64,000 nucleotides of DNA from Desulfuromonadaceae bacterium. GTDB lineage: Bacteria > Desulfobacterota > Desulfuromonadia > Desulfuromonadales > JAHYIW01. Of the stretch, positions 4,150 to 25,802 are shown one piece after another. The notes beneath the pieces are model-generated. The model worked only from the letters and a program-made list of their open reading frames with translations. It was not told the origin of the DNA and made no database searches. The first letter of the stretch is position 1, and every line of letters starts with the position of its first letter. A program made the position numbers and the translations under genes. The stretch covers positions 1 to 64,000 of the forward strand of contig JAHYIW010000001.1 in assembly GCA_019429445.1 (NCBI GenBank), read 5' to 3'.

Positions 4150-4150
4150 G

Positions 4151-6021: not shown

Positions 6022-6083
6022 GTGGTTGAATGGGCTTTTTCTTTTTGCGAGTGCATCATGCTTCAGGGAAGGAATTTTACACA

Positions 6084-7670: not shown

Positions 7671-7673
7671 GCG

Positions 7674-8772: not shown

Positions 8773-11142
8773 ATGCTGATGGACGGCCTCTTTGCCTCCC
8801 TTTATCGGCGCCTGGCGCGGCGGCGGACGCTGCTGCTGATCATTACCCTGTTCCTCTGGCTCGTCAGCCTGGCGGCGTTTACCCGGCTGGAGCTGGAAGA
8901 GAATATTGCGGCGATGCTCCCCGAAAGTGGCACCGCCAGCAGCGACTTGCGTTTGCTGGAGCGGGCACCTTTTGCCCGCAAGATTATTATCGACCTGACA
9001 GCGGACGCTTCGGTATCGACCGACGCGCTGATTCAGGCGGCTGACCGGTTGGCGGCAGAACTGCCGCGCGAGACCTTTTCCCGGGTGGTCAGCGGTCCGG
9101 ATGGCGAAGCGGGGGGCAATCTGGTGAGCGCGATGCTCGGTGTGCTGCCGAACCTGTTCAGCGCCGCAGATGCCGAGCGACTCAGCCGCGAATTAACGCC
9201 GTCGGCAGTTCGGGAACGGGTGAATGACAGCTACGCCGCCCTCCTTGCTCCCGAAGGTTGGGCGCTGAAACAGCTTCTGCGCAGCGATCCACTGAACCTG
9301 CGCCAGCTGGCACTGGAAAAATTACGCTATTTGCGGCTGGTGCCGAACGCGCAACTGAGTGACAATCATTTTGTCAGCAGTGATCGTCGTCATCTGCTGC
9401 TGCTGGCGGAAACGCCGTTGGCCGTCACTGATTCGGCCGGTGCCGTCGCACTCGAAGACGATTTTTCCACTGCCGCCCGCCTGGTGCTGCCGGACGGGAT
9501 CAAGGCAACGTTTTTAAGCGGCCACCGTTATACTCTGGCGAACGCCACCGCAGTCAAAGCTGACCTGTGGGTGGTGCTCGGGTGTTCGCTCAGCGCTATT
9601 GCGGCGATCTTCGCCATTTTTTTACGTCGGCGGCAGGCGCTCTGGGTGTTTTTGACCCCGGTTCTGGTGCTGACCACCGCCGCCTGCGCCGTGGCGCTGG
9701 TTTATCAACCGGTATCCGCGATCACCCTCGGCTTCGGCGCGGTGCTGCTCGGCATTTCGGTCGATTTTGCCATTCATGTCTACTATGCACTCCGCCATGC
9801 GGTCGGTGACCCGGCGGTGGCGCTCGGCAAGGTTGCCCGTCCGCTCCTCTTTGGCGGTCTGACCACGATTGGCGGGTTCGCGGTGCTGCTGTTATCTGAT
9901 TTGCCCGGTCAGCGGCAACTGGCGGTTTTTTCGGTCGCCGGAATTGTGACCGCGCTGTTGCTGTCCCTGCTGGTGTTGCCCCACCTGCTGCCGAGCGGCG
10001 CGGTGCAGATCATTTCCGCCGTTCCCCGCCGCGCCGACCGTAAGCGGGGCGGCTGGCTGCTGGTGACGGTTTGGTTCGTGCTTCTGCTGCTGTGCGGCTG
10101 GCAGGCACGGGATATTCGTTTTAACGGCGATCTGCGCGCACTCAGTTTGACCCCGCCAGAGCTCCGTCAGCTTGAAACGCAACTCGCACAGACCTGGGGT
10201 GGGTTGCACGGGCAGGCGCTGGTTTTCAGCTTTGGCGGCGGGGCCGAAGCAGCGTTGGCCGCCAATGATCGGCTCTTTGAGCGGCTGCAAACGGCATTGC
10301 CTGCTGAGCGGCTGGTGTCACTGGCGCCGTTACTCCCCGCGCTGACCAGCCAGGCGGAAAATCGTCAGCGCTGGAACGATTTCTGGACCGGCGAACACGG
10401 CCAGCAGATCGTCGCGACGTTACAGGAAGAAGCGACCCGGCTCGGGTTTTCAGCGCAAGCATTTGTTCCCTTTACCGAACGCTTAACCACAGCGGTGGCG
10501 CCGGTAACGCTTGATTTTTACCGTGCGGCCGGATTTGCCGATGCGTTTGCGGCGCTGCTTTTTACTGAAGACGGTGTGACCCGGTCGTTAACGTTGCTCC
10601 CCGATTCGCCACCGGTGCTGGCTGCGTTGACAACGATTGAGTCCGATCCGGCGACCCGCCTGGTGTCGCCGACCTGTTTTCGCAGTGAGATCAGCGCGGC
10701 GATTGAGGACGATTTTTTGCGCTTTATTACGCTGGCAGCGGTGCTGATCGTGACCTTGCTGCTGCTCCTCTTTCGTGACCTGCGCAAGGTTGTCCTGGCG
10801 CTGGTGCCGGTGGCCAGTGGCCTGCTCGGCATGTTCGGGGTGATGGCGACGCTCGGGGTGGAGTTTAATCTGTTTAACATCATCGCCACCATTCTGGTGA
10901 TCGGGCTCGGGGTGGACTACGGTATTTTTATGGTCTGTCGCGAAGACGAAAAGAGTGATCTTGGCACCGGACAGGCGGTTTTCGTCTCCGGATTGACGAC
11001 CCTGGCCGGGTTTGGCGCGCTGATTCTGGGGCAACATCCGGCGCTGTATTCCATCGGCGTCAGTGTGCTGATCGGTATCAGTGTCGCGATTCCGGCGGCG
11101 CTGCTGGTGGTTCCGGTGCTGTCCCGACGGTGGCTCAAATGA
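8773..11142 (+). CDS. MMPL/RND-type lipid exporter
   Basis: A 789-residue inner-membrane transporter of the MMPL family, like ApeK. One transmembrane helix lies near the N-terminus, then a periplasmic domain, then a block of helices around residues 255-420 (containing GFGAVLLGISVDFAIHVYYALRH). A second periplasmic domain and a second helix block from about residue 645 (VIGLGVDYGIFMVCRE) complete it. The paired GxSxDFAIH and GLGVDYGIF segments carry the Asp residues expected in proton relay. A GGAGGGG Shine-Dalgarno fixes the start. Its neighbours imply export of the finished lipid. Confidence 0.9.
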   Translation: MLMDGLFASLYRRLARRRTLLLIITLFLWLVSLAAFTRLELEENIAAMLPESGTASSDLRLLERAPFARKIIIDLTADASVSTDALIQAADRLAAELPRETFSRVVSGPDGEAGGNLVSAMLGVLPNLFSAADAERLSRELTPSAVRERVNDSYAALLAPEGWALKQLLRSDPLNLRQLALEKLRYLRLVPNAQLSDNHFVSSDRRHLLLLAETPLAVTDSAGAVALEDDFSTAARLVLPDGIKATFLSGHRYTLANATAVKADLWVVLGCSLSAIAAIFAIFLRRRQALWVFLTPVLVLTTAACAVALVYQPVSAITLGFGAVLLGISVDFAIHVYYALRHAVGDPAVALGKVARPLLFGGLTTIGGFAVLLLSDLPGQRQLAVFSVAGIVTALLLSLLVLPHLLPSGAVQIISAVPRRADRKRGGWLLVTVWFVLLLLCGWQARDIRFNGDLRALSLTPPELRQLETQLAQTWGGLHGQALVFSFGGGAEAALAANDRLFERLQTALPAERLVSLAPLLPALTSQAENRQRWNDFWTGEHGQQIVATLQEEATRLGFSAQAFVPFTERLTTAVAPVTLDFYRAAGFADAFAALLFTEDGVTRSLTLLPDSPPVLAALTTIESDPATRLVSPTCFRSEISAAIEDDFLRFITLAAVLIVTLLLLLFRDLRKVVLALVPVASGLLGMFGVMATLGVEFNLFNIIATILVIGLGVDYGIFMVCREDEKSDLGTGQAVFVSGLTTLAGFGALILGQHPALYSIGVSVLIGISVAIPAALLVVPVLSRRWLK

Positions 11143-11822
11143 CGATGACGAAGATGATACTGGTCGGCCTCTGCCTGGTCTTGATCCTCTGTGGCTGTCG
11201 TTCGGCAGGGCCGTTTCCGGCACCGACTTTGAGCGCCACGCATCCGCTGGCCATGTCAGAACTGCTGGGCGGGAGTTGGGCGCTTGACAACAGCACGATC
11301 CGCATGCGCCACACGGTGTTGCTGGAGCTCGGCTGGCGCAAACTGCCGATGGTCGGCCTGCTTGAACTCGATCGCACGGCGCGCACGATCCGGCTGGTGG
11401 CGGTGAACGATCTCGGTATCAAACTGTTCGATCTGACGGTGACGGTTGACGGGTACCAGACCAATTATCTCTTCCCCGAACTCGCCACCTACGCTGGTCT
11501 GGGTGAAACCGTGGCCGCCAGCGTGCGGAAGATTTTTCTCGACCCGCTGCCCCGCGACGATGACCGGCTGACGGTAACAGCTGATCAATATCAAACACGA
11601 CGGTCTCTGGGCGACGCCGAGCTGACCTTCACCTTTGGTGGCGAACGACCCGATCTGCTCGGCAAGGAGTTACGCGGCGGCGCACAGGGATGGGTTGTGC
11701 GTTACTACGACTATCGCGATCTGCCTGCCGGACGTTTGCCGGGGGGAGTCGTCCTGAAAGATCACACGGCGGGATACCGCCTGACCCTCTGGCTGGAAAA
11801 GGCGAATTTGATCGATGGATAA
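11139..11822 (+). CDS. DUF3261 outer-membrane lipoprotein (ApeL-like)
   Basis: A 227-residue lipoprotein. A short signal (MTMTKMILVGLCLVLILCGC) ends in a usable lipobox, so Cys20 would be lipidated. The body matches the DUF3261 pattern known from aryl-polyene and related clusters (ELLGGSWALDNSTIRM; LPMVGLLELDR). The ATG at 11139 overlaps the exporter TGA and is preferred over an in-frame codon 9 bp upstream. Its function is unproven in the family; a receiver of the exported lipid at the outer membrane is likely. Confidence 0.8.
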   Translation: MTMTKMILVGLCLVLILCGCRSAGPFPAPTLSATHPLAMSELLGGSWALDNSTIRMRHTVLLELGWRKLPMVGLLELDRTARTIRLVAVNDLGIKLFDLTVTVDGYQTNYLFPELATYAGLGETVAASVRKIFLDPLPRDDDRLTVTADQYQTRRSLGDAELTFTFGGERPDLLGKELRGGAQGWVVRYYDYRDLPAGRLPGGVVLKDHTAGYRLTLWLEKANLIDG

Positions 11823-12201
11823 GATGCAAACAGCAGTTGTCGCGGCAGCGATCACCCTCCCTGAAAAGGTTCTTCTTCCGGATGGCAGCCTGTCTGCAAC
11901 CCAGACGTATCTTTTCAACGCCGACTTCCTCGGCTTTCAGGGACATTTCCCCGCCGCCCCGATTTTGCCGGGGGTGGTGCAGAACCTGATCGGGCACTGC
12001 TTTAGTGAAGCGGTGCTGGAGCGATCGCTGGCGCTGGTCGGTATCGATAATGCCAAGTTTATGTTGCAGTTGGGACCGGAGATGGAAATTACGGTCAGCG
12101 GGACGTTCAGGGAAAAAGGGGATAACCTGGTCGCCTCAATCAAGTTGGATGTCGCGGATGGCACTGCTTCTGCCTATCAGTTGACGTTTATAAAAGAATA
12201 A
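11815..12201 (+). CDS. FabZ-type 3-hydroxyacyl-ACP dehydratase
   Basis: A 128-residue hotdog protein with the FabA/FabZ signature FQGHFPAAPILPG, which contains the catalytic His, and a following helix GVVQNLIGHCF. It overlaps the DUF3261 gene by 8 bp; an ATG at 11824 is an alternative start. It is the second dehydratase of the locus and may act with a different KS module from the ApeI-like protein at 7674. The canonical Glu of FabZ helix 3 is not obvious, so isomerase or non-catalytic roles remain possible. Confidence 0.8.
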   Translation: MDKMQTAVVAAAITLPEKVLLPDGSLSATQTYLFNADFLGFQGHFPAAPILPGVVQNLIGHCFSEAVLERSLALVGIDNAKFMLQLGPEMEITVSGTFREKGDNLVASIKLDVADGTASAYQLTFIKE

Positions 12202-12313: not shown

Positions 12314-12775
12314 ATGAAAAAGAAATACTTCAAACCAAATCCGAATGATCCGGCACCGTTGATCGCCACCGCGACCCGGCTGGTGCGCTTCGAGGAAGTG
12401 GATCCCCTCGGGATTGTCTGGCACGGACGCTATCCGAGTTACTTCGAGGATGCGCGGGTGCGGCTGTTCGAGAAGTTTGACATTGCCTACCTGACCCTCT
12501 ATGGCAAAGGGCTGGTGACGCCGATCAAGCAGCTGTATGTCGATTATCTTCTGCCGTTACGGTTTGAGGATGAGGTGACGATTGAGGCGCTCATGCATTT
12601 CAGTGAAGCGGCGCGGATCAATATTGAATACATTATTCGCAACGCGGCGGGTGAGGTTGCCACCACCGGTTATTCGGTGCAGATGATGATGGATCGGAAT
12701 GACACTATGTTGATCGTTGCCCCTCCGTTTTATCAGGATTTCATCGAAAAGTGGCGCAACGGAGGCCTGGCATGA
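12314..12775 (+). CDS. Acyl-CoA/ACP thioesterase, 4-hydroxybenzoyl-CoA thioesterase family
   Basis: A 153-residue hotdog thioesterase. The N-terminal VRFEEVDPLGIVWHGRY is the family signature, with the catalytic Asp in VDPLGIV, followed by YFEDARVRLFE. Members of this group in aryl-polyene clusters release or proofread acyl or aryl thioesters. It is coupled by an ATGA overlap to the next KS gene. A role in product release or starter editing is inferred. Confidence 0.88.
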   Translation: MKKKYFKPNPNDPAPLIATATRLVRFEEVDPLGIVWHGRYPSYFEDARVRLFEKFDIAYLTLYGKGLVTPIKQLYVDYLLPLRFEDEVTIEALMHFSEAARINIEYIIRNAAGEVATTGYSVQMMMDRNDTMLIVAPPFYQDFIEKWRNGGLA

Positions 12776-13899
12776 GCGTCTGCGTGGTCGACATGGCGCT
12801 GCACAGTGCCCTGGGTGATCTGGATGAAACCTGGGCTGGCCTGCTGGCTGGCAAGTCGGGTGTAAGACCTGTCGCACGGTTCGTCACAGACAACTACCTG
12901 ACCGGCATGGGGGCGTGGATTGACGGGCTGCCGCAGTCCTCAGACAGTTCGGCGGTGCATGTTTTGCTCGACAAAGTGTGGGCTGACTTTGGTTCTGTTC
13001 CGGCTGACGCTCAGCTGCTGACCGCTACCACCAAAGGCGGGATCGACATGCTTGAAGCGTTGCGGCGCGGATCGGCGGCAAATGTGCCTGACCTTGACAA
13101 CGCCCGTCTGCTGCAAACAATCTCTGCTCGCTTCGGACTCGCTGGTCGGGGCCGTAACATCAACGCCGCCTGCGCCTCCTCAACCATCGCCGTGGCTCAC
13201 GCTGCAGCGATGATTGCCGCCGGCGATGTTGACGCGGTGCTGGTGGTTTGTTTCGATCTGCTCACGGAATTTGTTTTCTCCGGATTCTCCGCCCTGCAGG
13301 CCCTTGATCCGCTGCCGAGTCGTCCGTTCGACCGGGAACGCAGAGGGTTGAGCCTCGGCGAAGGCGCGGCGGCGCTGCTGCTGATGAGTGAGGAACGCGC
13401 GGCGCGTGAAGGACGTGCTTCCCTCGGTGCCGTTCTCGGCTGGGGGGTCGCCAACGACGCCAACCACATTACCGCCCCGGCGCGTGACGGTTGTGGCCTG
13501 ATTCAGGCAGTCAACAATGCCCTGAAGCGGGCCGCTGTTGCTCCGCAAGCAATCAGCGGCATCAGTGCCCACGGCACCGGCACGGTCTACAACGATCTGA
13601 TGGAGCTGGTGGCGTTTGAGCAACTTTTCCCGCATGGCACGCCACCGCTCAATTCGATCAAAGGCGCACTCGGGCATACTCTCGGCGCTGCTGGCGGGAT
13701 CGAAGCCGTGCTCGGTCTCAGGTCGTTGGCCAGCGGGCAACTGCTGCCGACTGTCGGACTCCAGAACCCTGAAGAAAAGGCCGAGGGGTTGGTCTCTTCG
13801 TCGGTTCAATCCCTGTCCGATGGTCTGCTCCTGAGCACCAACTCCGGTTTCGGTGGCATCAACGCCGCATTGATCCTCGGCCAAGGTGGTGCGGCATGA
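12772..13899 (+). CDS. Beta-ketoacyl-ACP synthase (KS of KS/CLF pair 1)
   Basis: A 375-residue condensing enzyme with Cys134 in NAACASSTIA, His in SAHGTGTVYND and Lys/His in SIKGALGHTLGAAGG, so it should be active. The ATG at 12772 overlaps the thioesterase stop; a longer in-frame start at 12751 lies inside that gene and is rejected. The next gene overlaps by ATGA and encodes a KS-like protein without the Cys. That gene order matches the ApeO-ApeC heterodimer of aryl-polyene synthesis. Confidence 0.92.
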   Translation: MSVCVVDMALHSALGDLDETWAGLLAGKSGVRPVARFVTDNYLTGMGAWIDGLPQSSDSSAVHVLLDKVWADFGSVPADAQLLTATTKGGIDMLEALRRGSAANVPDLDNARLLQTISARFGLAGRGRNINAACASSTIAVAHAAAMIAAGDVDAVLVVCFDLLTEFVFSGFSALQALDPLPSRPFDRERRGLSLGEGAAALLLMSEERAAREGRASLGAVLGWGVANDANHITAPARDGCGLIQAVNNALKRAAVAPQAISGISAHGTGTVYNDLMELVAFEQLFPHGTPPLNSIKGALGHTLGAAGGIEAVLGLRSLASGQLLPTVGLQNPEEKAEGLVSSSVQSLSDGLLLSTNSGFGGINAALILGQGGAA

Positions 13900-14594
13900 G
13901 TGTGACGATTCGTGGTATTGGCTGGGTCACCGCCGCCGGGATGGGGTGTGGCAGAGAGGCGGACGGGTTCTCGATGCCGCACGGGGAACTGCCAAAGTTG
14001 AAGCGCAAGGATGTCTTCACCGACGCCTACCTGCGTTTCGGGCGGATCGACGGATTCTCCAAACTTGGTCTGGCGGCGATCACCTTTGCCCTGCGCGACG
14101 CCGGGCTGGAGGAGTGGGACGTAAAACGCCCGATCGGCGTCGTCGCCGCCACCCGTTACGGTTGCCTGGCAACCGACAGTGACTATTTCGACAGCGTGAT
14201 CCCGGACCACGGGGCCCTCGCCAGCCCGAACCTCTTTGCCTATACGTTGCCGAACTGTTTCCTCGGTGAAGCCGCAATCCGCTTTGGGCTCACCGGCCCG
14301 AGTATGGTAATTAATGAAGAGACCCCCGATGGCCTCGGTGGCATCCGCATGGCGCTTGACCTGATCCGCTGGGGGGAGTGTGAGACAGTGGTGGCCGGGG
14401 TCAGTGACCTGGAGCGACCGGCGGTGGCGGATTTTGGTGAGCAGGCTCCGGGGAGCGTGTTTCTGGTTCTCTCCCGTGATGCGGACGCTGCTGGTTATGG
14501 GGTGCTGAGTCGGGGGGGCGGTGGGGCGTTGTTGCTGGATGGTGCTGCGGTGTCTTCGGTTGAGGCGTTGGTGGGGAAGGCTTTGAAAAGATAG
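13896..14594 (+). CDS. Chain-length-factor-like protein, truncated KS fold (pair 1)
   Basis: A 232-residue protein resembling the N-terminal half of a ketosynthase (Ketoacyl-synt_2 type), as in ApeC. At the place of the nucleophile it has Thr143 in INEETPDGLGG, so it cannot form the acyl-enzyme. It keeps the dimer-interface-like GLAAITFALRDAG. The C-terminal catalytic half is absent, which is normal for ApeC-like subunits and not a frameshift. It is translationally coupled to the active KS upstream and probably sets chain length in a heterodimer. Confidence 0.82.
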   Translation: MSVTIRGIGWVTAAGMGCGREADGFSMPHGELPKLKRKDVFTDAYLRFGRIDGFSKLGLAAITFALRDAGLEEWDVKRPIGVVAATRYGCLATDSDYFDSVIPDHGALASPNLFAYTLPNCFLGEAAIRFGLTGPSMVINEETPDGLGGIRMALDLIRWGECETVVAGVSDLERPAVADFGEQAPGSVFLVLSRDADAAGYGVLSRGGGGALLLDGAAVSSVEALVGKALKR

Positions 14595-14826: not shown

Positions 14827-16089
14827 ATGAAAATGTATCTCGTCTACCCGAAATGGCCGAAACTCGACCGTCAGACCGAATTTCACCTGCCGCCGCACGG
14901 CCCGGTGGTCTTTGCCGCCGCGCTGCCGCCGGAAGTCGACATCACCTTTGTTGACGAAAATCTGCAGACGATTGATTTTGATTTTTCCTGTGATCTGGTC
15001 TGCATGTCGACGATGCTGACCTGCCAGCTGCCGCGTGCTTTTGAGATTGCGCGGGAGTTTCGTGCGCGGGGCAAGGTGGTTATGTTCGGCGGGATCTCGA
15101 CCATGCTCCATTCCGAAGAGGTGATGGAACATGCTGATTCGGTCTTCCTCGGCGAGGTCGAGGGGCGTTTCGGGCAGGTGCTGGAGGATCTCGAAAAAGG
15201 GCAGCTCAAGCCGGTTTACAATTATATGAACAATCACCCCGACATCAATCTGGTCGGCACCGCCCGGCGTGATATCCTGCAACGCGAGCTTTACAATTAT
15301 CGCGGCGTGCAGATGCTCGATCTGGTGCATGCCTCGCGCGGCTGCAAATTCGACTGCTTCCCGTGCTGCACCGGTTTCCTCGGTGGCAAGAAATTCCGCC
15401 CGCGGCCAATCGATATGGTGATCAAGGAGATGGAAGAAATCCAGAACAACCGGATGTTCATCGTCGACAATTCGCTGGCACAGGATCGCCAGTGGTTGCT
15501 CGACCTCTTTACCGAGATGGCGCCGCTGAAGAAAAAGTGGGTGTCCCACCCGATTCTGGATGACGATGAAGTCTTGCGCAAGGCCGCCGATGCCGGCGCC
15601 TGGTACGTCTATCAGGCGGTTTTCGATACCTCCGACATGATCCGCAAGCGCATCAAGCGGCTCAAGGATTTCGGGATTGGCATCGAAGGCACTATCATCC
15701 TCGGCACCGATGACCAGAGCGCCGACGACATCAAGCGGCTGGTCGATTTCCTCATTGAGGTGGAACTTGATGTCGCCGAATTCACCATCCTCACCCCTTT
15801 TATGCAGTCGCCGATCCGCAAGCAGCTGGAAAAAGAGGGACGGATTCTGAGTAATAACTGGGCTGACTACAATGCTGACAAGGTCGTCTTCCAGCCGAAG
15901 CAGATGACTCCGGAAAAATTGCAGGAGATGTACTATTACGCTTGGGATACCTTCAATGCCGACGGCGGCCATGCGCTGAAGATGGGGAAACTCTTTGATC
16001 AGGTGATTCGGCGCGAGATCGAGGATGGCACTTATCGCCGCTATGAACCGCGTAAAAAACGCCAGTTCAAAAAAGCGGAAAGCGTATGA
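14827..16089 (+). CDS. Radical SAM protein with B12-binding-like N-terminus (1 of 3)
   Basis: A 420-residue protein. The N-terminal ~150 residues look like a Rossmann B12-binding domain (MFGGISTML, VFLGEVEGRF). The radical SAM cluster motif follows with Cys173, Cys177 and Cys180 in SRGCKFDCFPCC. AAGGAA precedes the ATG. Such enzymes use a 5'-deoxyadenosyl radical, often to methylate or rearrange unactivated carbons. Three in a row inside a lipid cluster recall the candidate ladderane loci. The reaction is unknown. The stop overlaps the second copy. Confidence 0.88.
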   Translation: MKMYLVYPKWPKLDRQTEFHLPPHGPVVFAAALPPEVDITFVDENLQTIDFDFSCDLVCMSTMLTCQLPRAFEIAREFRARGKVVMFGGISTMLHSEEVMEHADSVFLGEVEGRFGQVLEDLEKGQLKPVYNYMNNHPDINLVGTARRDILQRELYNYRGVQMLDLVHASRGCKFDCFPCCTGFLGGKKFRPRPIDMVIKEMEEIQNNRMFIVDNSLAQDRQWLLDLFTEMAPLKKKWVSHPILDDDEVLRKAADAGAWYVYQAVFDTSDMIRKRIKRLKDFGIGIEGTIILGTDDQSADDIKRLVDFLIEVELDVAEFTILTPFMQSPIRKQLEKEGRILSNNWADYNADKVVFQPKQMTPEKLQEMYYYAWDTFNADGGHALKMGKLFDQVIRREIEDGTYRRYEPRKKRQFKKAESV

Positions 16090-17459
16090 GTAAAGTCTTT
16101 CTCCTCTCGACTAACTACACGACTGAACCGTACCCGGTTTATCCCCTCGGCATGGCGATCATTGCCGGGGCGCTCGAAGCGGGCGGGCACCAGACGCGGC
16201 AATGCGATTTTCTTGTTGCCGGGAAATCGTGCGCGGCGGTTGTCGCGGCGGTGACTGAATTTCAGCCGGATGTCATCGGTTTGTCGTTACGCAATATCGA
16301 TAATGTTGATTCATTTTCGCAACAGACCGCCTGGTATCTGGCGCAGGCGAAGGAACTGGTCGATGCCATTCGCTCGTGCAGTTCGGCACCGATGATTGTC
16401 GGCGGCGCGGCGTTTACAATTATGCCGGAGGAGATTCTCGCTTACCTTGGGTGTGAGCATGGCGTGGTCGGTGAGGGAGAAGGATTGATTTGTGGATTAG
16501 TTGACGGCCTCGTTGCCGGGAAGCCCATGCCGCGCATGAGCAATGGCGAAGCAACCCCGCTGACCGGGGCGGAGATCGGTTCGCCGTTGTACGTCAAAGA
16601 GTTTGTCGATTTTTATCTGGCCGAAAGTGGTCAGATCAACGCGCAGTCCAAACGCGGTTGTCCGCATCGCTGTGTTTATTGCACCTATCCCGGCATTGAG
16701 GGGAATCGCTTTCGTCCCCTCGACCCGCTACGGGCGGTTGATGAAATTGCCCGGGCGCAGCGCAATTTCGGTATCCACAGCTTCTTTTTTACCGATTCGG
16801 TTTTCAACGATGAGCAGGGGCACTACCTGCGTTTCGTCGAGGAGCTGGAAAGGCGCAACCTCGGCATCACCTGGACCGGATTCTTTCGCCCTAAAGGGGT
16901 GGGCCGCGAAGAGTTGCGGCTGATGAAGCGTGCGGGGCTGACCGCGCTGGAACTGGGCACCGATGCCGCCAGCGACACGACGCTGGCCGGATTGAAAAAA
17001 GATTTTACGATAGCCGATGTATTGGCGGTCAACGCTGCCTGTGTTGCCGAGCAGCTTCCGGCGGCCCACTACATCATGTTTGGCGGTCCGGACGAGAGTG
17101 AAGAAACGGTGCGCGAAGGGCTGCGCAATGTCGAGCAGATCAATTGCAGCGTGGTCTTTGCCTTCTCCGGGATTCGCATCCTGAGCGGTACCGAGCTGCA
17201 CGGACGGGCGATTGCGGACGGGGTGATCAGTGCCGAGTGCGAGCTGCTGATGCCCGCGTACTATTTTTCACCGCTGATCGAGCCGCAGTCGATGAATGCG
17301 CAGATTCTGGCAACGTTCAACAAACGGCGCGAGTGGATTTTCCCCCCCTCGGAGGGGCAGGCGAAGCTGGAAGTGATGCGTCGTTTCGGTTTCCGCGGCT
17401 TGTTATGGGATCGGCTGGTGTCGTTTGAAGCGAAGCGACGGGCGCTGAAAAAAGGCTGA
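16086..17459 (+). CDS. Radical SAM protein with B12-binding-like N-terminus (2 of 3)
   Basis: 457 residues. The N-terminal domain (PLGMAIIAGALEAGGH, then PMIVGGAAFT and VVGEGEGL) is B12-binding-like. The [4Fe-4S] motif has Cys192, Cys196 and Cys199 in KRGCPHRCVYCT, and the barrel continues to GLTALELGTDAASD. The start overlaps the stop of copy 1 by ATGA. Copies 1 to 3 are too different to be a recent duplication, which suggests three separate steps. Substrate unknown. Confidence 0.9.
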   Translation: MSKVFLLSTNYTTEPYPVYPLGMAIIAGALEAGGHQTRQCDFLVAGKSCAAVVAAVTEFQPDVIGLSLRNIDNVDSFSQQTAWYLAQAKELVDAIRSCSSAPMIVGGAAFTIMPEEILAYLGCEHGVVGEGEGLICGLVDGLVAGKPMPRMSNGEATPLTGAEIGSPLYVKEFVDFYLAESGQINAQSKRGCPHRCVYCTYPGIEGNRFRPLDPLRAVDEIARAQRNFGIHSFFFTDSVFNDEQGHYLRFVEELERRNLGITWTGFFRPKGVGREELRLMKRAGLTALELGTDAASDTTLAGLKKDFTIADVLAVNAACVAEQLPAAHYIMFGGPDESEETVREGLRNVEQINCSVVFAFSGIRILSGTELHGRAIADGVISAECELLMPAYYFSPLIEPQSMNAQILATFNKRREWIFPPSEGQAKLEVMRRFGFRGLLWDRLVSFEAKRRALKKG

Positions 17460-18916
17460 TGATGCAACTCGACACCCGAAAAATATTACTGGTTCATCCC
17501 CTCGGCTACAGCGCTGAAGCGGCCGGAAGTGACATCTCGCGAATGGCGAATATCATGCCGCCGCTGGGGTTGGCGAGTATCGCCGCTTATCTGGAGCGTG
17601 AGCACTTTAGCGCGGATATCATCGACTGTTATGCCCATCCCGATTCAGATGCGAAGATTTCCACCTATCTCCAGACGCAGCGTCCGGCGTGGCTCGGGTT
17701 CAGCTGCACCACCTCATCGTTTCTCGATGCCGTGCGTCTGGCCAGACTGGCAAAGTCGATCCTGCCCGAAATCCGTGCGGTCTTTGGTGGCGCGCATGTG
17801 TCGGCGCTCAAGGGGCAACTGCTCAACGATTATCCGGCTGTCGATATCGTGGTGATCGGCGAGGGGGAAGAGACGTTACGCGAACTGCTGGAGAAGGGGT
17901 TCGACCAGGCCGCGACGGTAGCGGGACTGGTGTGGCGCAATGCTGCCGGGGGGGCGGAATCGAACGGTTATCGCTCTGCGGCGCTGGAGCTTGACAGCCT
18001 GCCCTTTCCGGCCTACGAAAAGCTCGCCGGTTATCCCGAGGCCTACACGTTGCCGCTCTTCAACTATCCGAAAGCGCCAAGCACCAGCTGTATTTCGAGC
18101 CGTGGCTGTCCTTACGCCTGTACCTATTGTGATCGTTCCGTCTTTCAGCGGACGTTTCGGCATAACTCGGCCGCTTATCTCTTCCGCCACGTCAAATATC
18201 TGCATGAACGTTTCGGCATTCGGCATATCAATTTTTACGATGATCAGTTCACTTTCAAGCGGCAACGGGTCGAGGAATTCTGTCAGCTGATGATCAATAA
18301 TCCGCTCGGGATGACGTTCAATTGCGCGGTGCGCGCCGAGCATATCGATTTTGAACTGCTCAAACTGATGAAGGCCGCCGGGTGCTGGATGGTCAGCCTT
18401 GGCATCGAGTCGGGCGATGAAGAATTGCTGGCGCGGCATCGTCAGAACGCCAACCTCGATATGCTGGCCGACAAGATTCGCCTGATCAAAAAGGCCGGTA
18501 TCCGCACCAAGGGGCTGTTGATGATGGGGTTGCCGGGGGAGACCGAGGAAAGCATTCGCCGCAGCATGGAGTATGTCTTCTCGTTGCCGATCGATGATTT
18601 CAACCTCTCTAAATTTACCCCGTTCCCCGGTTCACCGATCTACGAGACGATCCATGAGCTCGGCGAGTTTGACGAGGATTGGGAAAAGATGGACTGCATG
18701 CGCTTCCAGTTCGTACCGCACGGCATGCAGAAGGACCGTCTGGAGGAACTCTTCATCCTCTTTTACAAGACCCACTTTCAACGTCCGAAGGTGTTGCTCG
18801 GCTACGTGGCGATGATGTGGAAATCGCCTGACAGCTGGAAACGCTTTCTCGCTAATCTTGGTTCGTTTTTACGCTTTGCCAAAAGTAACGACCGGCTCGG
18901 GGAGGGCAAGTCCTGA
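17459..18916 (+). CDS. Radical SAM protein with B12-binding-like N-terminus (3 of 3)
   Basis: 485 residues and the most typical of the trio. The N-terminal domain contains MPPLGLASIAAYLEREHF, FGGAHVSALKG and VVIGEGEETLRELL. The SAM cluster is Cys217, Cys221 and Cys224 in SRGCPYACTYCDRS. KGLLMMGLPGETEES and FTPFPGSPIYE are the conserved barrel strands of class B-like enzymes. Start and stop both overlap their neighbours, and a glycosyltransferase follows. It may be a C-methylase or a C-C bond-forming enzyme acting on an acyl chain; this is inference. Confidence 0.92.
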   Translation: MMQLDTRKILLVHPLGYSAEAAGSDISRMANIMPPLGLASIAAYLEREHFSADIIDCYAHPDSDAKISTYLQTQRPAWLGFSCTTSSFLDAVRLARLAKSILPEIRAVFGGAHVSALKGQLLNDYPAVDIVVIGEGEETLRELLEKGFDQAATVAGLVWRNAAGGAESNGYRSAALELDSLPFPAYEKLAGYPEAYTLPLFNYPKAPSTSCISSRGCPYACTYCDRSVFQRTFRHNSAAYLFRHVKYLHERFGIRHINFYDDQFTFKRQRVEEFCQLMINNPLGMTFNCAVRAEHIDFELLKLMKAAGCWMVSLGIESGDEELLARHRQNANLDMLADKIRLIKKAGIRTKGLLMMGLPGETEESIRRSMEYVFSLPIDDFNLSKFTPFPGSPIYETIHELGEFDEDWEKMDCMRFQFVPHGMQKDRLEELFILFYKTHFQRPKVLLGYVAMMWKSPDSWKRFLANLGSFLRFAKSNDRLGEGKS

Positions 18917-20097
18917 TGACGTCGGAGCGCCCCAATTTCCTGATTGTGATCCCGCTCTACAATCATGCCGATACGGTTCGCTCGGTGGTGGAAAAAGCCT
19001 TGAACATGCATGATCAGGTGCTGGTGGTTGATGATGGCAGCAGCGACGCCGGGGCGGCGGCCCTTGACGGACTCAAGCTGCGCGTGTTGCGGCATCCCGA
19101 AAACCGGGGCAAGGGGGCGGCGGTACAGACCGCCTTGCACGAAGCGGAAAAACTTGGTTTCAGCCATATTGTGATTATCGACGCCGACGGTCAGCATGAC
19201 CCGGCCGATCTGCCGCAATTTGTTGCCGCCATGGCGGCTGACCCGACGGCGATTGTAGTCGGTAAACGTGATTTCAATCAGGCGAGTATCCCCGCATCAT
19301 CACGTTTCGGGCGCAACTTTTCCAACTTCTGGTTGCGGGTGCAGACCGGCAAGATGCTGGGCGACACCCAGAGTGGTTTTCGCGCCTATCCGGTAAAGAT
19401 CGTGCGGGGGCTGAAATTGCAGGAAGCGCGTTACACATTCGAGATCGAGGTGCTGGTGCGGGCGGCCTGGGCCGGAGTGGCGCTGCGCGATGTTGATATC
19501 AGCGTCTATTACCCGCCACAGGCTGAGCGTGTCTCGCATTTCCGTGGCTTTATGGATAACTTTCGCCTGACCTTGCTCAATACCCGCCTGACCCTGCGGT
19601 CGATCACCCCCTGGCCGCACCGCAAGGTGGTGGCGAGTGGCGAGGTGGAACAGAAGGTGACAATCCTGCATCCGCTGCGCTCGGTGCGGGCTCTTCTGAC
19701 CGAAAATGTGACGCCGGGGCAGCTGGCGGCGGCCGGTGCCGTCGGGGTCTTTATCGGCGCACTGCCGATTCTGGCCGCGCATACCGTGACGATCTTGCTG
19801 GTCGCCGGGTTTTTTCGCCTCAACAAGGTGGCGGCCATCGGCGCCAGCCAGTTATGCATGCCGCCGCTGGTGCCGGGGCTCTGTATTGAAGTCGGTTACT
19901 TTTTCCGCAACGGTCAATTTTTAACTGAAATATCGATCGAAACCCTCGGCTATCAGGCGCTTGATCGACTCTATGAATGGCTGATCGGTTCATTGACCCT
20001 CGGCCCGCTACTGGCCGGGATAGTCGCGCTGATTATCTATCTGGTGGCGACTACCCTCCGTCGCGACATGGGAAGGGCCGAACGTGCCAGAGTGTGA
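18916..20097 (+). CDS. Family 2 glycosyltransferase with C-terminal DUF2062
   Basis: 393 residues in two parts. Residues ~5-230 form a GT-A glycosyltransferase (VIPLYNHADTV, LVVDDGSSDAG, IIDADGQHDPADLP with the DxD-like motif). Residues ~255-385 form a membrane DUF2062 domain (VFIGALPILAAHTV). In aryl-polyene loci a GT2/acyltransferase (ApeJ) links the polyene to its carrier lipid. Here the two activities are in separate overlapping genes, this one and the next. It probably adds a sugar to the lipid anchor at the inner membrane. Confidence 0.88.
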   Translation: MTSERPNFLIVIPLYNHADTVRSVVEKALNMHDQVLVVDDGSSDAGAAALDGLKLRVLRHPENRGKGAAVQTALHEAEKLGFSHIVIIDADGQHDPADLPQFVAAMAADPTAIVVGKRDFNQASIPASSRFGRNFSNFWLRVQTGKMLGDTQSGFRAYPVKIVRGLKLQEARYTFEIEVLVRAAWAGVALRDVDISVYYPPQAERVSHFRGFMDNFRLTLLNTRLTLRSITPWPHRKVVASGEVEQKVTILHPLRSVRALLTENVTPGQLAAAGAVGVFIGALPILAAHTVTILLVAGFFRLNKVAAIGASQLCMPPLVPGLCIEVGYFFRNGQFLTEISIETLGYQALDRLYEWLIGSLTLGPLLAGIVALIIYLVATTLRRDMGRAERARV

Positions 20098-21040
20098 CGA
20101 AAGATCACGTTCCGCCGAGCGCCAGAAGTGGACCAGCCGGAGTATCGGGGCGTCATGGCAGCATCAGTCATTTTATCTGCTGATCCGCCTCGGGGGCCGC
20201 CGGGCCGCCTATCTGCTCCTGTATCTGGTGGTTTTCTATTACGTGTTGCTGCCAGCGGTACGGCGCAAGTGTCACTATTACCTTGCGCGGCGCTTCCCCC
20301 AGGCCGGTGTCTGGGGGCGCTTCAAAAACAGCTACTTGATGACCCTCGATCTGGGGAAAGTGCTGGTTGACCGGGCACTGGTCGGGATCCTCGGCGCGGA
20401 CGAGATCACGGTTGAACTGCACGGCAAGGAGGAACTGCTGGAGCTGTTGGCGGAGCGCAAGGGTCTGATTCTGGTCAACGCCCATGTCGGCTGCTGGCAG
20501 GTGGCGATGTCGGCCCTCGGGTTCATGAAAACCCCGGTCAATCTGCTGATGCAGCGTGAGGCCGGGGATATCGACCGGCACTACTTCGAGCATGCCGGGA
20601 TCGAATGCCCTTACCGGATCATCGACCCGCGTGGCTACCTTGGCGGGGCGCTGGAAATGATCGAAGTGCTCAAGCGCGGCGAGGTGCTGTCGGTGATGGG
20701 TGACCGGATGCTGGGCGATGATCGTAACGGCGTGGACGTGGAATTTATGGGCGGGACCGTGACTTTGCCGTTCAGTGCCTATAAGCTGGCATCGGCCACC
20801 GGGGCGCCGATCGTCGCGCTCTTCTCGTACAAGACCGGGGCGGACAGTTATGCGCTCAAGCTCTATCGGACGATCCGGGTGCCGGGTGGTCTGGGGCGGG
20901 GGAACGCGGTGTTTGTTCCCTATGTGCGTGAATTTTCGGCGACGCTGGAAGAATTTTGTGCGGAACATCCGTTTCAGTTTTTTAATTTTTTCGATATGTG
21001 GCAGAATAGCGCGGTTTCGTCCGCCGTCGGGCGTGACTGA
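20084..21040 (+). CDS. LpxL/HtrB-like lysophospholipid acyltransferase
   Basis: 318 residues with an N-terminal membrane anchor (AAYLLLYLVVFYYVLLPAV) and the acyltransferase core GLILVNAHVGCWQVAMSAL. The second conserved region is VLSVMGDRMLGDDRNG and LPFSAYKLASATGAPIV. The GTG at 20084 has GGAAGG 8 bp upstream and overlaps the glycosyltransferase gene by 14 bp, so production of the two is linked. The family acylates lipid A-type acceptors from acyl-ACP. Here it is likely to transfer the cluster product to a glycosylated lipid. Confidence 0.87.
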   Translation: MPECDERSRSAERQKWTSRSIGASWQHQSFYLLIRLGGRRAAYLLLYLVVFYYVLLPAVRRKCHYYLARRFPQAGVWGRFKNSYLMTLDLGKVLVDRALVGILGADEITVELHGKEELLELLAERKGLILVNAHVGCWQVAMSALGFMKTPVNLLMQREAGDIDRHYFEHAGIECPYRIIDPRGYLGGALEMIEVLKRGEVLSVMGDRMLGDDRNGVDVEFMGGTVTLPFSAYKLASATGAPIVALFSYKTGADSYALKLYRTIRVPGGLGRGNAVFVPYVREFSATLEEFCAEHPFQFFNFFDMWQNSAVSSAVGRD

Positions 21041-21062
21041 TATTCAAGAAGGAGTTTTAACC

Positions 21063-21317
21063 ATGAGTGTGAAAGAAAAACTCAAACGAGTTTTGATCGA
21101 AGATCTTAACCTGGAAGATGTGGAACCAGACGAAATCGATGATGATATGGCGCTCTTCGGCGAGGGGCTGGGGCTGGATTCCCTCGACGCGGTGGAACTG
21201 GTGGTGATCGTGCAGAAGCATTTCGGAGTGGAAATCAAGGACATGGAAGAAGGGCGTCCGGCGTTGCAGACGATCAACACCCTGGCAAAATATATCGAGC
21301 AGCGGCTGGCGGGATGA
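21063..21317 (+). CDS. Acyl carrier protein 2 of the cluster
   Basis: An 84-residue acidic ACP. Ser40 in GLGLDSLDAVEL takes the phosphopantetheine arm. AGAAGGAG lies 8 bp ahead of the ATG at 21063; a much longer open frame from 20775 covers the acyltransferase in another phase and is rejected. The stop overlaps the start of the next KS (ATGA), so this carrier is matched to KS/CLF pair 2. Confidence 0.95.
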   Translation: MSVKEKLKRVLIEDLNLEDVEPDEIDDDMALFGEGLGLDSLDAVELVVIVQKHFGVEIKDMEEGRPALQTINTLAKYIEQRLAG

Positions 21318-22507
21318 TTAAAACCGCGCCGATCGCCATAACCGGTCTCGGCTGTCTCTGTGCGGCGGGAATGAATCTCGCCGAATGTCTGGAGAGCATG
21401 TTCCGCAGTGAACGCAATCCGCATGCGCCGGTGCGTTTTTCGACCGATCATCCGGTCAGCTATCCGGTGCTGGAGTTGCGCGAGGATTTCAAACTTCCGC
21501 TCGATGATCAGCAGACGATCTACGCTCGCACCAGTCAACTGGCGCTGGCGGCGACGTTGGAAGCGTTGACCGATGCTGGCTGGGATGTCGCGAGTCTGCG
21601 CGGCAAGCGGGTCGGGGTGTGCATCGGCACCACTGTTGGTTGCGCGTTGAATTGTGACGATTTCTATCGGGCCTATAAAGATGGTGATGACCCCGAAATG
21701 GCGGCCATCGAGCGTTACCTGCGCAGCAACCCGGCGGCAGTCATTGCCCGGCAACTGAAACTGGACGGACCGAATCAGACTGTCGTCAACGCCTGCTCCT
21801 CCGGCACCGACGCCATCGGCCTGGGGGCGTCGTGGCTGCGCGCCGGGGCGTGCGATATCGTTATCGCCGGTGGCGCGGATGAACTGTCGCGAGTGACCTA
21901 CGCTGGCTTCAGTTCCTTGATGATTACCGACACCGAGCCGTGCAAACCGTTTGACGTTAAACGTAAAGGACTGAATCTTGGCGAAGGGGCCGGTATTCTG
22001 ATTCTCGAAAATGAATCGGTACGTGGCACCAAGGCGGCCCGTGGTTATGTACTCGGTTATGGTTCGGCCTGCGACGCCTATCACCTGACCGCGCCGCGAC
22101 CCGATGGTGCCGGTCTTAAACAGGCGATGCAGGAGGCGTTTACCGCCGCCGGGGTGACTCCCGACCAGATCGCCTTCGTCAATGCCCACGGCACCGGCAC
22201 CCCGGATAACGATCGGGTCGAAAGCCGGGTGTTGAGCGAGGTGCTGCCAGGGACACCGTTTGTTTCAACCAAAGGTTATACCGGTCATACCCTCGGCGCG
22301 GCCGGGGGGATCGAAGCGGTCTTTACCGTGGCCTGTTTGCAGCGCGGTGAAATTCCGGCCAATATCGGCTTTGTCGATGCCGATCCGGAGCTGCCGGGAA
22401 CCCCGGTCACCGAAAACACCCGGATTGAGGGAACGGTTGCGCTGTCAGAGTCACTCGCCTTCGGCGGCAACAACGCCGTGGTGATTCTCGGTAAAGGAGC
22501 TGCATGA
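21314..22507 (+). CDS. Beta-ketoacyl-ACP synthase (KS of KS/CLF pair 2)
   Basis: A 397-residue full-length condensing enzyme with Cys161 in VVNACSSGTDAIG, His in NAHGTGTPDND and Lys/His in STKGYTGHTLGAAGG. Overlap with ACP 2 and a 1-bp gap to the KS-like gene downstream make an ACP-KS-CLF module. Compared with pair 1 (12772-14594), the partner is a longer protein, which suggests that the two modules make chains of different length or act in succession. Confidence 0.93.
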   Translation: MIKTAPIAITGLGCLCAAGMNLAECLESMFRSERNPHAPVRFSTDHPVSYPVLELREDFKLPLDDQQTIYARTSQLALAATLEALTDAGWDVASLRGKRVGVCIGTTVGCALNCDDFYRAYKDGDDPEMAAIERYLRSNPAAVIARQLKLDGPNQTVVNACSSGTDAIGLGASWLRAGACDIVIAGGADELSRVTYAGFSSLMITDTEPCKPFDVKRKGLNLGEGAGILILENESVRGTKAARGYVLGYGSACDAYHLTAPRPDGAGLKQAMQEAFTAAGVTPDQIAFVNAHGTGTPDNDRVESRVLSEVLPGTPFVSTKGYTGHTLGAAGGIEAVFTVACLQRGEIPANIGFVDADPELPGTPVTENTRIEGTVALSESLAFGGNNAVVILGKGAA

Positions 22508-22508
22508 T

Positions 22509-23597
22509 ATGCGCATGGCGATTTCCGGCATAGGTATCTCCGGCGGGTTTGGCTGCGGCGTTGCGGCGTTGCGGCAGGCATTGCAGCGTGGCGTGGTCGA
22601 ACCCCGGCAATGCAGTGTGGAGCGCAATGGCGCAACCGACACCTTTCCCGCCTATCGAACCTCAATTGAAGGGCTGGACGAGTTTATCCCCAAACGGGCA
22701 TTGCGCCGCATCGATCATTTTTCAAAAATGACGCTGCATAGTGCCTGTCTGGCGTTGCAGGACGCCGGGTTGTCCGGCGGCGATCTCTCCCGCCTGGGGG
22801 TCATCATTGCCACCGGCTACGGGGCGTTGAAAACAACCTTCGATTTTCTCGATTCGTATCTCGACTTTGGCTATTCCTGTAGTTCTCCGACCCACTTTTC
22901 CAATTCGGTGCATAACGCTGCGGCGGCGCATGTATCGATGCACTTTAAGACGACGGCACCGAGTCTGACCGTGACCCAGTTCGAAATGTCGGTTCCGTCA
23001 GCGTTGCTGACGGCGCAGTTGTGGCTGGCCGAAGGGCGGGTCGATCAGGTGCTGTTCGGAACGATCGATGAATACTGCGCAGTGCTGCGCTATTGTCGCA
23101 GACAGTTTTTTGCAACAGGTGAACAGGGTCCGCTGCAACCGTTTACCTTTGCTGAACAGAGTGCCGTGGTTGGCGAAGGGGCCGCCTTTTTTGTCCTGAG
23201 CCGGGGGGAAGAAGATGCCCGTTACGGAGCGATTGATGCCGTTACCCTGGGTAATCATGCCGTTGTTCCACTGACCCTGCCGCACGATGATCTGTTGATC
23301 ATCGGTGCCGATGGTCATGCGGAGTGTGGCCGCTGGTATGCGCAGGCGCTGACCGACCGCGCGGTGGCCGCGTATGCACCGTTGTACGGCAGCTTTCCGG
23401 CGGCTGCCGGGTTTGACCTGGCGGTCGCCGCGCTGTCACAGCAAGACGGGCTTCTCTACGCCAGTCCGGCGACGGCTGGCGCCGCGGACTCAGCACTACA
23501 AGTTGTCGCGGCCCGGCGACCGCTGGGGAAAGCAAATATCGCCTGTCTGAAATTCGGACCGGGTGGCGACTACGGTTTGATCCGGTTGTCACGCTGA
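22509..23597 (+). CDS. KS-like chain-length-factor candidate lacking the Cys (pair 2)
   Basis: A 362-residue ketosynthase-fold protein. Alignment by eye to the neighbouring KS puts Glu159 (TQFEMSVPSALL) at the nucleophile position, so condensing activity is not expected. The N-terminal half (RIDHFSKMTLHSACLALQDAG, IIATGYGALKTTFDF) resembles the other Cys-less protein at 13896. Unlike that one it extends through a weakly conserved C-terminal half. Acidic substitution of the Cys occurs in KSQ/CLF-type decarboxylating subunits (there Gln). Role inferred as partner of the 21314 KS. Confidence 0.8.
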   Translation: MRMAISGIGISGGFGCGVAALRQALQRGVVEPRQCSVERNGATDTFPAYRTSIEGLDEFIPKRALRRIDHFSKMTLHSACLALQDAGLSGGDLSRLGVIIATGYGALKTTFDFLDSYLDFGYSCSSPTHFSNSVHNAAAAHVSMHFKTTAPSLTVTQFEMSVPSALLTAQLWLAEGRVDQVLFGTIDEYCAVLRYCRRQFFATGEQGPLQPFTFAEQSAVVGEGAAFFVLSRGEEDARYGAIDAVTLGNHAVVPLTLPHDDLLIIGADGHAECGRWYAQALTDRAVAAYAPLYGSFPAAAGFDLAVAALSQQDGLLYASPATAGAADSALQVVAARRPLGKANIACLKFGPGGDYGLIRLSR

Positions 23598-23604
23598 GGG
23601 TGTG

Positions 23605-24171
23605 ATGCGTGGTGTTCTGCTTATCCTTGCGATTCTGGGGCCGCTCCTTTTTGCCCGGCCACTCTCTGCGCAGGACGATGCCGCTGCTCTGGAACCCACG
23701 CGTTACGGGGTGGCGTTACTGGTCGGCTCCGCCTACGACCCGCACCGCATCGGGCTGGCGCTGGTGCAGGGGCAATTGCTGCTCGATTATGACCGCATTG
23801 CCTGGCACGCTGCTCCGCAAGCGCTGCGGCTCAAGTTTGAAGTCAATGCCGGACTGACCACCGATGGCCGCGATCGGGGACTCCTGGCGGTCAATATGTT
23901 GGCGCTACGTTACCTCGATGGTTTACAGGCTGGCCAATGGACCCCCTATATTGAAGCCGGTGTGGGGGTGATCTATACCGATTTCCAGGTAAAGGGGCAG
24001 GGGTTGCGGATCAATTTTAACCCCCAGGCGGGCGCCGGGGTTGCATACCTCCTGGCGGGCGGAGAAGCGGTAACGATGGCGTTGCGGCTGCATCATATTT
24101 CCAACGGTGATACCTACAAAGATAATCGTGGCGTCAATTCGGCGTTGCTGATGATCGGATATCTGTTCTAG
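23605..24171 (+). CDS. PagL-like lipid A deacylase / acyloxyacyl hydrolase family
   Basis: A 188-residue outer-membrane beta-barrel. The signal peptide (VLLILAILGPLLFARPLSA) is followed by alternating amphipathic strands. The motif RLHHISNGDTY near residue 164 matches the PagL catalytic His-x-Ser, and the protein ends in a Phe (GYLF) as barrels do. The ATG at 23605 is chosen over a GTG 3 bp earlier for better spacing from GAGGG. PagL removes a 3-O-acyl chain from lipid A; in this locus it might edit the acceptor or free space for the product. The stop codon lies inside a MITE-like repeat. Confidence 0.8.
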   Translation: MRGVLLILAILGPLLFARPLSAQDDAAALEPTRYGVALLVGSAYDPHRIGLALVQGQLLLDYDRIAWHAAPQALRLKFEVNAGLTTDGRDRGLLAVNMLALRYLDGLQAGQWTPYIEAGVGVIYTDFQVKGQGLRINFNPQAGAGVAYLLAGGEAVTMALRLHHISNGDTYKDNRGVNSALLMIGYLF

Positions 24172-24334
24172 TACCCTGTAACCCATAGGATTTCGAGGGA
24201 TTGCGCAGGGCGTTGACGTGTCAGCCAGGCGCGATTTCTGTTGCCTAGCCGTAGCTAAACAGCTGAAATCGGAACGTAGCTGACGCGGCAAAGAACAAGC
24301 AAGATGCGAAAGATTATGGGTTACAGGGTGCTAG
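24168..24334. mobile_element. 167-bp MITE-like element with CTAG ends
   Basis: Two 28-bp ends match in inverted orientation at 24 positions: CTAGTACCCTGTAACCCATA at the left, and CTAGCACCCTGTAACCCATA read on the other strand at the right. CTAG occurs at both borders, as a 4-bp target duplication of the IS5/YTAR type would give. The left end supplies the stop codon of the PagL-like gene, and the right end stops 2 bp before the next ATG. It carries no coding sequence. Confidence 0.78.
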
Positions 24335-24336
24335 CG

Positions 24337-24783
24337 ATGAAAAAAGAAGATGTTCCCCAGCAAGGCGGTTTGAACGCCGGATGTCGCGAAGTCAATTACG
24401 CTGTCGATGGTGACGGGCGCTATACGCTCGAATCAAGTGTTGGTTGGGAGGCGAAGAATATCGCCTTGCGCCAGGCCTGGGAGGCGATTGTTGAGCAACT
24501 GGCCGGCGTGATTGGTGAAATTAACGCCGGCAAGAAGAGCGCCCTGGCCTACCATATGACCAAAAATCAGATGGACCCGGCGCTGCTTGCCCAATATTCC
24601 GGTGTCGCCCGCTGGCGGGTGAAACGCCACCTGAAACCAGCCGTATTCGCCAAACTCAAAGATGCGGCGTTGTCTCCCTATGCCGAACTGTTCGGCATCA
24701 GTGTCGAGACGCTGCGGAGTGTGCCCGCGACCCCGGATCTGCTGCTGGATGAACTTGATCAATCAGAGGATGTGAATTTGTGA
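24337..24783 (+). CDS. Conserved small protein with HTH-like C-terminus
   Basis: 148 residues from the ATG at 24337; upstream in-frame codons lie in the repeat. I do not recognise a named family. Residues ~70-130 read AYHMTKNQMDPALLAQYSGVARWRVKRHLKPAVFAKL, a run compatible with a helix-turn-helix (LAQYSGVARWRVKRHL). A Tyr-Ala-Glu-Leu-Phe-Gly-Ile tail follows. It overlaps the BtrH-like gene by a GTGA junction, so the two are probably made together. A regulatory or accessory role with that protein is possible. It is the only regulator candidate in the locus. Confidence 0.6.
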   Translation: MKKEDVPQQGGLNAGCREVNYAVDGDGRYTLESSVGWEAKNIALRQAWEAIVEQLAGVIGEINAGKKSALAYHMTKNQMDPALLAQYSGVARWRVKRHLKPAVFAKLKDAALSPYAELFGISVETLRSVPATPDLLLDELDQSEDVNL

Positions 24784-25784: not shown

Positions 25785-25802
25785 TCTGAATCGCGAGAAT
25801 TG

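Follow-up and report, generated by a model that had tools for sequence, protein, structure and literature searches.

What do three consecutive B12-type radical S-adenosylmethionine (SAM) enzymes do inside a polyene gene cluster? The question is raised by a 64,000-nucleotide stretch of DNA from a Desulfuromonadaceae bacterium (assembly GCA_019429445.1, contig JAHYIW010000001.1, positions 1 to 64,000 of the forward strand; hereafter the window), in which the genes rSAM1, rSAM2 and rSAM3 stand in a row. It is suggested, tentatively and with a probability that we place just short of even, that the trio forms a tailoring cassette of an oxygen-free flexirubin/aryl-polyene pathway, with rSAM2 as a methylating enzyme acting most likely on the aryl ring. 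The three open reading frames (ORFs) are:

14827 to 16089, + strand: rSAM1, 420 amino acids, radical SAM protein with an N-terminal B12-domain-like fold, reaching the cut-off of no named family
16086 to 17459, + strand: rSAM2, 457 amino acids, B12-binding/radical SAM protein, TsrM-like, family TIGR04072
17459 to 18916, + strand: rSAM3, 485 amino acids, B12-binding/radical SAM protein of the HpnJ/BchE supergroup

The initial annotation described three consecutive genes overlapping by 1-4 bp, each with an intact CxxxCxxC motif and diverged from the others, and these points were all confirmed. The ORFs lie at exactly these coordinates, with overlaps of 4 bases between rSAM1 and rSAM2, 1 base between rSAM2 and rSAM3, and 1 base between rSAM3 and the following glycosyltransferase gene. 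All nine motif cysteines (C173/C177/C180 in rSAM1, C192/C196/C199 in rSAM2 and C217/C221/C224 in rSAM3) are invariant among 85, 101 and 57 homologues, respectively. Pairwise identity within the trio is 21-24%, over partial stretches only, and each protein forms a separate clade in the tree (support 100/100), which rules out a recent tandem duplication as the source of the trio; on sequence grounds they are three distinct enzymes. An N-terminal B12-domain-like region had been claimed for all three. This holds for rSAM2 and rSAM3, which score 65.9 and 86.5 bits against the Pfam B12-binding model (cut-off 32.1) and also exceed the Radical_SAM cut-off, whereas rSAM1 stays below the B12-binding cut-off at 22.7 bits and its domain is supported by the fold. 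No cobalamin riboswitch was detected near the cluster at gathering score. Placement of the trio in families of unrelated known function was not observed: rSAM1 and rSAM3 score below the cut-off of every named family, all three proteins lie far below the curated cut-offs of HpnR, HpnJ and BchE, and rSAM2 passes only TIGR04072, a lipid family without a known reaction.

The strongest indication of chemistry comes from rSAM2, which scores 640 bits against TIGR04072 (rSAM_ladder_B12; cut-off 360), a family to which rSAM1 (44.5 bits) and rSAM3 (88.7 bits) do not belong. Behind TIGR04072, the best-scoring NCBIfam models were BzaD (189 bits) and that of the tryptophan C2-methyltransferase family (124 bits), each representing aromatic C-methyltransferases. 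In a profile search of solved structures TsrM ranked first for rSAM2 (161 bits, runner-up 93), as it did in Foldseek (TM score 0.84, next about 0.65) and VIA-align (Z 35, root-mean-square deviation (rmsd) 2.5 over 439 residues, next Z 28), although the cut-off of the TsrM family TIGR04428 was not reached (124.5 bits versus 500). R69 of rSAM2 falls opposite TsrM Arg69 in the alignment and is the same in 101/101 sequences, and position 239 (V239), corresponding to TsrM Glu273, is V, I or F in all 101, with Glu never present. In TsrM, Arg69 sits under the cobalt and keeps it without a lower ligand, a Lys variant losing tryptophan methylation, while Glu273 occupies the free iron of the cluster and blocks radical chemistry (PMC8992657). 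Judged by these residues, rSAM2 combines a TsrM-type cobalamin side with an ordinary iron-sulphur side, and it is predicted to C-methylate an sp2 carbon, probably of an aryl ring. At the Arg69 place rSAM1 has Met63 and rSAM3 has Thr84 (positioned by eye on the S-x-x motif), differences that fit three different reactions. Of the chemistries proposed in the initial annotation, C-methylation is thereby a good candidate for rSAM2, and no sign of cyclisation or C-C coupling was seen. A second rSAM2-like clade, scoring about 320 bits against rSAM2 models and keeping an RNID motif, was encountered in anaerobic ammonium-oxidising (anammox) and Desulfuromonadales genomes outside polyketide synthase (PKS) surroundings; its members are L148:9329-10756, L151:8534-10177, L152:8117-9544 and L157:8715-10142.

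The surroundings of the trio had been read as a polyene cluster, and family models bear this out, indicating a flexirubin/aryl-polyene-like type. Besides the trio, the cluster, which extends from 387 to 27893 in the window, contains (KS, ketosynthase; CLF, chain-length factor):

387 to 1856, + strand: phytoene-desaturase-like FAD oxidoreductase
1847 to 3079, + strand: ketosynthase KS1
3076 to 3339, + strand: acyl carrier protein 1
3340 to 4149, + strand: PlsC-like acyltransferase
4118 to 5470, + strand: AMP-forming ligase, nearest to FlxY of flexirubin (464 bits, cut-off 520)
6030 to 7670, + strand: aromatic amino-acid lyase, FlxA/HutH-like, with an ASG triad (methylideneimidazolone, MIO)
7674 to 8135, + strand: FabZ-like dehydratase
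8135 to 8755, + strand: LolA-like carrier, nearest to LolA2 of flexirubin clusters (97 bits, cut-off 125)
8773 to 11142, + strand: MMPL/RND-type lipid exporter
11130 to 11822, + strand: candidate DUF3261 (ApeN-like) lipoprotein (20.0 bits, cut-off 22.3)
11815 to 12201, + strand: ApeI-like dehydratase
12314 to 12775, + strand: 4HBT thioesterase (ApeK-like role)
12751 to 14594, + strand: ketosynthase KS2 (12751 to 13899) and its CLF-like partner (13896 to 14594)
18916 to 20097, + strand: GT2 glycosyltransferase with DUF2062, overlapping rSAM3
20084 to 21040, + strand: LpxL-like acyltransferase (ApeD-like role)
20961 to 21314, + strand: acyl carrier protein 2
21314 to 22507, + strand: ketosynthase KS3
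22509 to 23597, + strand: CLF-like ketosynthase partner, no Cys/His motifs found
23602 to 24171, + strand: PagL-like deacylase
24304 to 24783, + strand: DarG family protein (flexirubin/dialkylresorcinol), above cut-off
24780 to 25784, + strand: DarH, BtrH-related acyltransferase, above cut-off
25800 to 27893, + strand: ABC transporter ATPase and permease

Both DarG_fam (149 bits, cut-off 70) and DarH (473 bits, cut-off 300) passed, and the ligase, LolA and lyase had FlxY, LolA2_flexi and FlxA, respectively, as their best or nearly best models, without reaching the cut-offs. The lyase scored 478 bits against FlxA (cut-off 700) and slightly higher against HutH models, likewise below cut-off; besides its triad it has an NQDVVSMG stretch in common with tyrosine aminomutase, and its context makes tyrosine the likely substrate. 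FlxA itself was at first predicted to be a histidine lyase, and the ring methyl of flexirubin derives from methionine (PMC3992019). The export, thioesterase, dehydratase and acyltransferase functions match the E. coli aryl-polyene (ape) list (PMC8253772). Among the cluster genes no Pfam methyltransferase domain and no ordinary methyltransferase (ApeB) were found, the sole methyltransferase nearby (30111-30941, - strand) lying in an apparent biotin operon. DarA and DarB were not recognised among the cluster genes, of which the left end is cut, the contig and the window both starting inside a ketosynthase gene (window 1-387). A ketoreductase is absent from the window; in the relative G013, whose chromosome is a single contig, one stands just upstream. 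Elsewhere in the window, a 636-amino-acid ORF without Pfam match lies antisense to the lyase gene (6123-8033, - strand), probably by chance; the likely biotin operon (methyltransferase, hydrolase, aminotransferase and BioW) spans 30111-33707 (- strand), and a complete bacterial class A RNase P RNA was found at 56426-56820.

Together, these features are consistent with a pathway in which the lyase would supply an aromatic starter, most likely 4-coumarate, which the FlxY-like ligase would activate and the ketosynthase/CLF pairs would extend to a polyene, the product then undergoing tailoring and being acylated onto a lipid or sugar before its export through LolA/MMPL/DUF3261. In this scheme methylcobalamin would be the methyl donor in the rSAM2 reaction and an electron-rich sp2 carbon, most likely in the aryl ring, the acceptor; the enzyme would stand in for ApeB, the ordinary SAM methyltransferase of E. 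coli aryl polyenes. As in TsrM, Arg69 under the cobalt may weaken the Co-CH3 bond; with no counterpart of Glu273 in the way, the iron-sulphur cluster should be accessible to SAM, and a radical route may be possible too. Two further, different steps would be carried out by rSAM1 and rSAM3. The methyl transfer, its site, the starter and the polyene product as a whole are all predictions at this stage, whereas gene content, linkage, conservation, family assignments, the Arg69 match and the missing Glu are observed.

The trio is conserved well beyond the source genome. TIGR04072 was above cut-off in 21/58 genomes searched (source genome included), and the order rSAM1-rSAM2-rSAM3 was kept in 18 of the 20 regions found syntenic in other species, which argues that the arrangement is not due to chance; of the other two, one has rSAM3 moved and the second lies on a contig that begins inside rSAM2. 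Identities in these 20 regions were 65-99% for rSAM1, 42-95% for rSAM2 and 67-97% for rSAM3, and the gene order is, by this comparison, conserved across Desulfuromonadales families. Among 80 named loci, including those of Desulfuromonas, Desulfuromusa, Geothermobacter and Geobacter, relatives that put the source in or near the Desulfuromonadales, rSAM1 was present in 66 and adjacent to rSAM2 in 63, KS/CLF genes were present in 71, and rSAM3 was adjacent in 34; it lies kilobases away in Desulfosediminicola and G012, and was not seen in some loci. A trio at 72-88% identity to that of the window was also found on a contig labelled Neptunomonas (L061), a metagenome-assembled genome, probably through a binning error.

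This distribution, together with several other observations, weighs against a ring-methylating cassette. A lyase was in range at only 15/80 loci, rSAM2 being far wider than the lyase, and no close lyase was found in any of the 196 other genomes of the phylum sample, though 23 of them have rSAM1; a different aromatic acid would be required in lyase-free clusters, or else rSAM2 acts on the chain. The Arg69-Asn-x-Asp stretch is shared by the anammox orthologue and by paralogues further removed, which makes it a mark of the clade rather than proof of methylation. Ladderanes themselves are not known to carry a methyl branch. Finally, the contig edge cuts the left end of the cluster, which leaves room for a distant methyltransferase.

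An unlikely alternative is that the trio modifies the polyene chain and not the ring, by C-methylation, isomerisation or desaturation, equally in every cluster whatever the starter. In its favour, the adjacent rSAM1-rSAM2 pairs come from Desulfobacterota-type lineages, Nitrospirota, Omnitrophota and others, with no lyase visible in most cases, and conservation within the trio is highest for rSAM1 (mean column identity 78%, versus 75% and 66% for the other two). However, the enzymes known to be closest to rSAM2 have aromatic rings as substrates, and relatives of the FlxY-like ligase occur in many of the clusters with long enough flanks, pointing to an aromatic starter in these as well. In favour of the ring, a lyase sharing 69% identity with that of the window was found 15 bases before rSAM2, without rSAM1 or rSAM3, at L135:8360-11338, a small type II PKS locus from an uncultured deltaproteobacterium that also contains two short radical SAM ORFs.

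In the AlphaFold model of rSAM1 (predicted local distance difference test, pLDDT, 90.3), an alpha/beta domain at the N-terminus precedes a radical SAM barrel, the latter present even though the Pfam Radical_SAM score is below cut-off (27.2 versus 29.5). Over its full length the model resembles cobalamin enzymes but also MiaB and AprD4, the matches being AprD4 (Z 32), MgmA (26), OxsB (24), TsrM (24), CysS (24) and MiaB (22). No requirement for cobalamin is known for AprD4. With MiaB and AprD4 among the matches, the fold alone is insufficient to show cobalamin in rSAM1, for which binding is a prediction from the model. Its identity is about 57-90% in named loci and 30% in anammox bacteria.

It is rather unlikely that rSAM3 is a later add-on with a lipid substrate of its own and that the functional core consists of rSAM1-rSAM2. 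Apart from its adjacency in 34/80 loci only, stand-alone relatives of rSAM3 (47-51% identity) occur without rSAM1 in other genomes of the class (L188:8849-10267, L189:8866-10284 and L190:8475-9896). In the phylum sample of 197 genomes, however, rSAM1 was found in 24, rSAM3 in 25 and both in 18, so that the presence of rSAM1 in 18/25 rSAM3-positive genomes, against 24/197 overall, indicates that the two are linked. Comparison of the neighbours of the stand-alone relatives for a clue to function revealed none that were shared; one relative has a PagL-like gene directly after it. A tie between rSAM3 and the lyase was considered, since 14/15 lyase clusters (all but L135) have rSAM3, and was rejected: rSAM3 is common without the lyase, and among rSAM3-positive genomes of the phylum only the source genome has a close lyase.

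Ring closure on the polyene, whether ladderane-like or another cyclisation, has been proposed for the syntenic anammox genes and is a further alternative for the trio. In the Kuenenia-like genome G342 an rSAM2 orthologue (38% identity, assigned by gene order) occupies the place of Kuste3342, positions being taken from the Kuenenia gene list (PMC4790861). It shares with the window a ligase, FabG/ACP (acyl carrier protein)/FabZ-sized ORFs, MMPL, a phytoene-desaturase-like gene and a glycosyltransferase. An ORF for a SPASM-type radical SAM protein lies next to it, and an rSAM1-like gene (30% identity) 12 kb upstream. Non-methylase cobalamin radical SAM enzymes that form or rearrange rings are also on record (PMC13142503). 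Yet in 16/16 tested genomes identified as anammox by hydrazine synthase (63-100% identity), rSAM2 exceeded 430 bits in only 5, the other 11 having none above 330 bits. Completeness of these genomes was unstated, and draft gaps may explain some absences but are not likely to explain all; in G471, G376 and G502, which lack rSAM2, the hits lie on single megabase contigs. Judged by the rSAM2 marker, the Kuste3335-3352-type cluster proposed for ladderane synthesis is thus missing from 11/16 anammox genomes. Furthermore, no ladderanes were made by Desulfotalea psychrophila despite its syntenic cluster, an argument against ring closure that a reviewer had also put forward (PMC2649909). These two lines of evidence render a ladderane role of the TIGR04072 family doubtful and, in our view, unlikely, the trio following flexirubin-like clusters rather than ladderane lipids; the comparison with the ladderane locus advised in the initial annotation therefore weakens its cyclisation idea, and ring closure by the trio appears quite improbable.

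Rattray et al. 2009 had already noted clusters of this kind, from Kuenenia, Desulfotalea, Geobacter and Pelobacter, and the family was named by NCBI. In a partial literature search, no paper was found joining radical SAM genes with flexirubin-type and aryl-polyene genes, or noting the Arg69 signature of rSAM2. As far as checked, the flexirubin identity, the TsrM signature and the anammox absence are new, the cluster kinship having been known since 2009. A broader proposal, which as a whole we hold to be decidedly unlikely, is that an oxygen-free flexirubin/aryl-polyene branch across many anaerobic phyla uses a B12 radical SAM cassette including a TsrM-like, radical-competent ring methylase, and that the anammox 'ladderane' cluster belongs to this branch and not to the ladderane pathway. 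If true, the widely annotated 'ladderane' family would be renamed an aromatic/polyene tailoring family, and the search for ladderane genes would shift elsewhere. In addition, rSAM2 would be a relative of TsrM whose iron-sulphur site is open, offering a natural test of the choice between polar and radical methyl transfer, and the branch would be an anaerobic counterpart to a pigment family known from aerobic bacteria.

Compared with known systems, the window cluster resembles flexirubin (flx/dar) and aryl-polyene (ape) clusters in its predicted lyase/ligase initiation, KS/CLF genes, dehydratases, thioesterase, LolA/MMPL/DUF3261 export, DarG and DarH, and differs in having three B12-type radical SAM enzymes, no ordinary methyltransferase found and no DarA/DarB recognised in view. 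The TIGR04072 proteins (Kuste3342/DP1853-type, Rattray et al. 2009) are like rSAM2 in family score and in synteny with ligase, phytoene-desaturase-like, MMPL and glycosyltransferase genes, but rSAM1 and rSAM3 are not members and ladderanes do not track the family. TsrM, the tryptophan C2-methyltransferase (6wte, 6wtf), is the nearest solved relative of rSAM2 by both sequence and fold and has Arg69 and the RNxD stretch in common with it, whereas its radical-blocking Glu273 is replaced by V/I/F in rSAM2, which falls below the TsrM family cut-off. The radical SAM diol dehydratase AprD4 (6fd2) is the closest fold to rSAM1 (372 residues, rmsd 2.5), but shares 19% identity with it, the family score being 18.9 against a cut-off of 500. 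HpnJ, HpnR and BchE share the superfamily architecture of rSAM3, which best matches HpnJ (188 bits) and BchE (177 bits) and yet remains far under their cut-offs (578 and 481, respectively), and the true HpnJ of a relative falls outside the rSAM3 clade in the tree.

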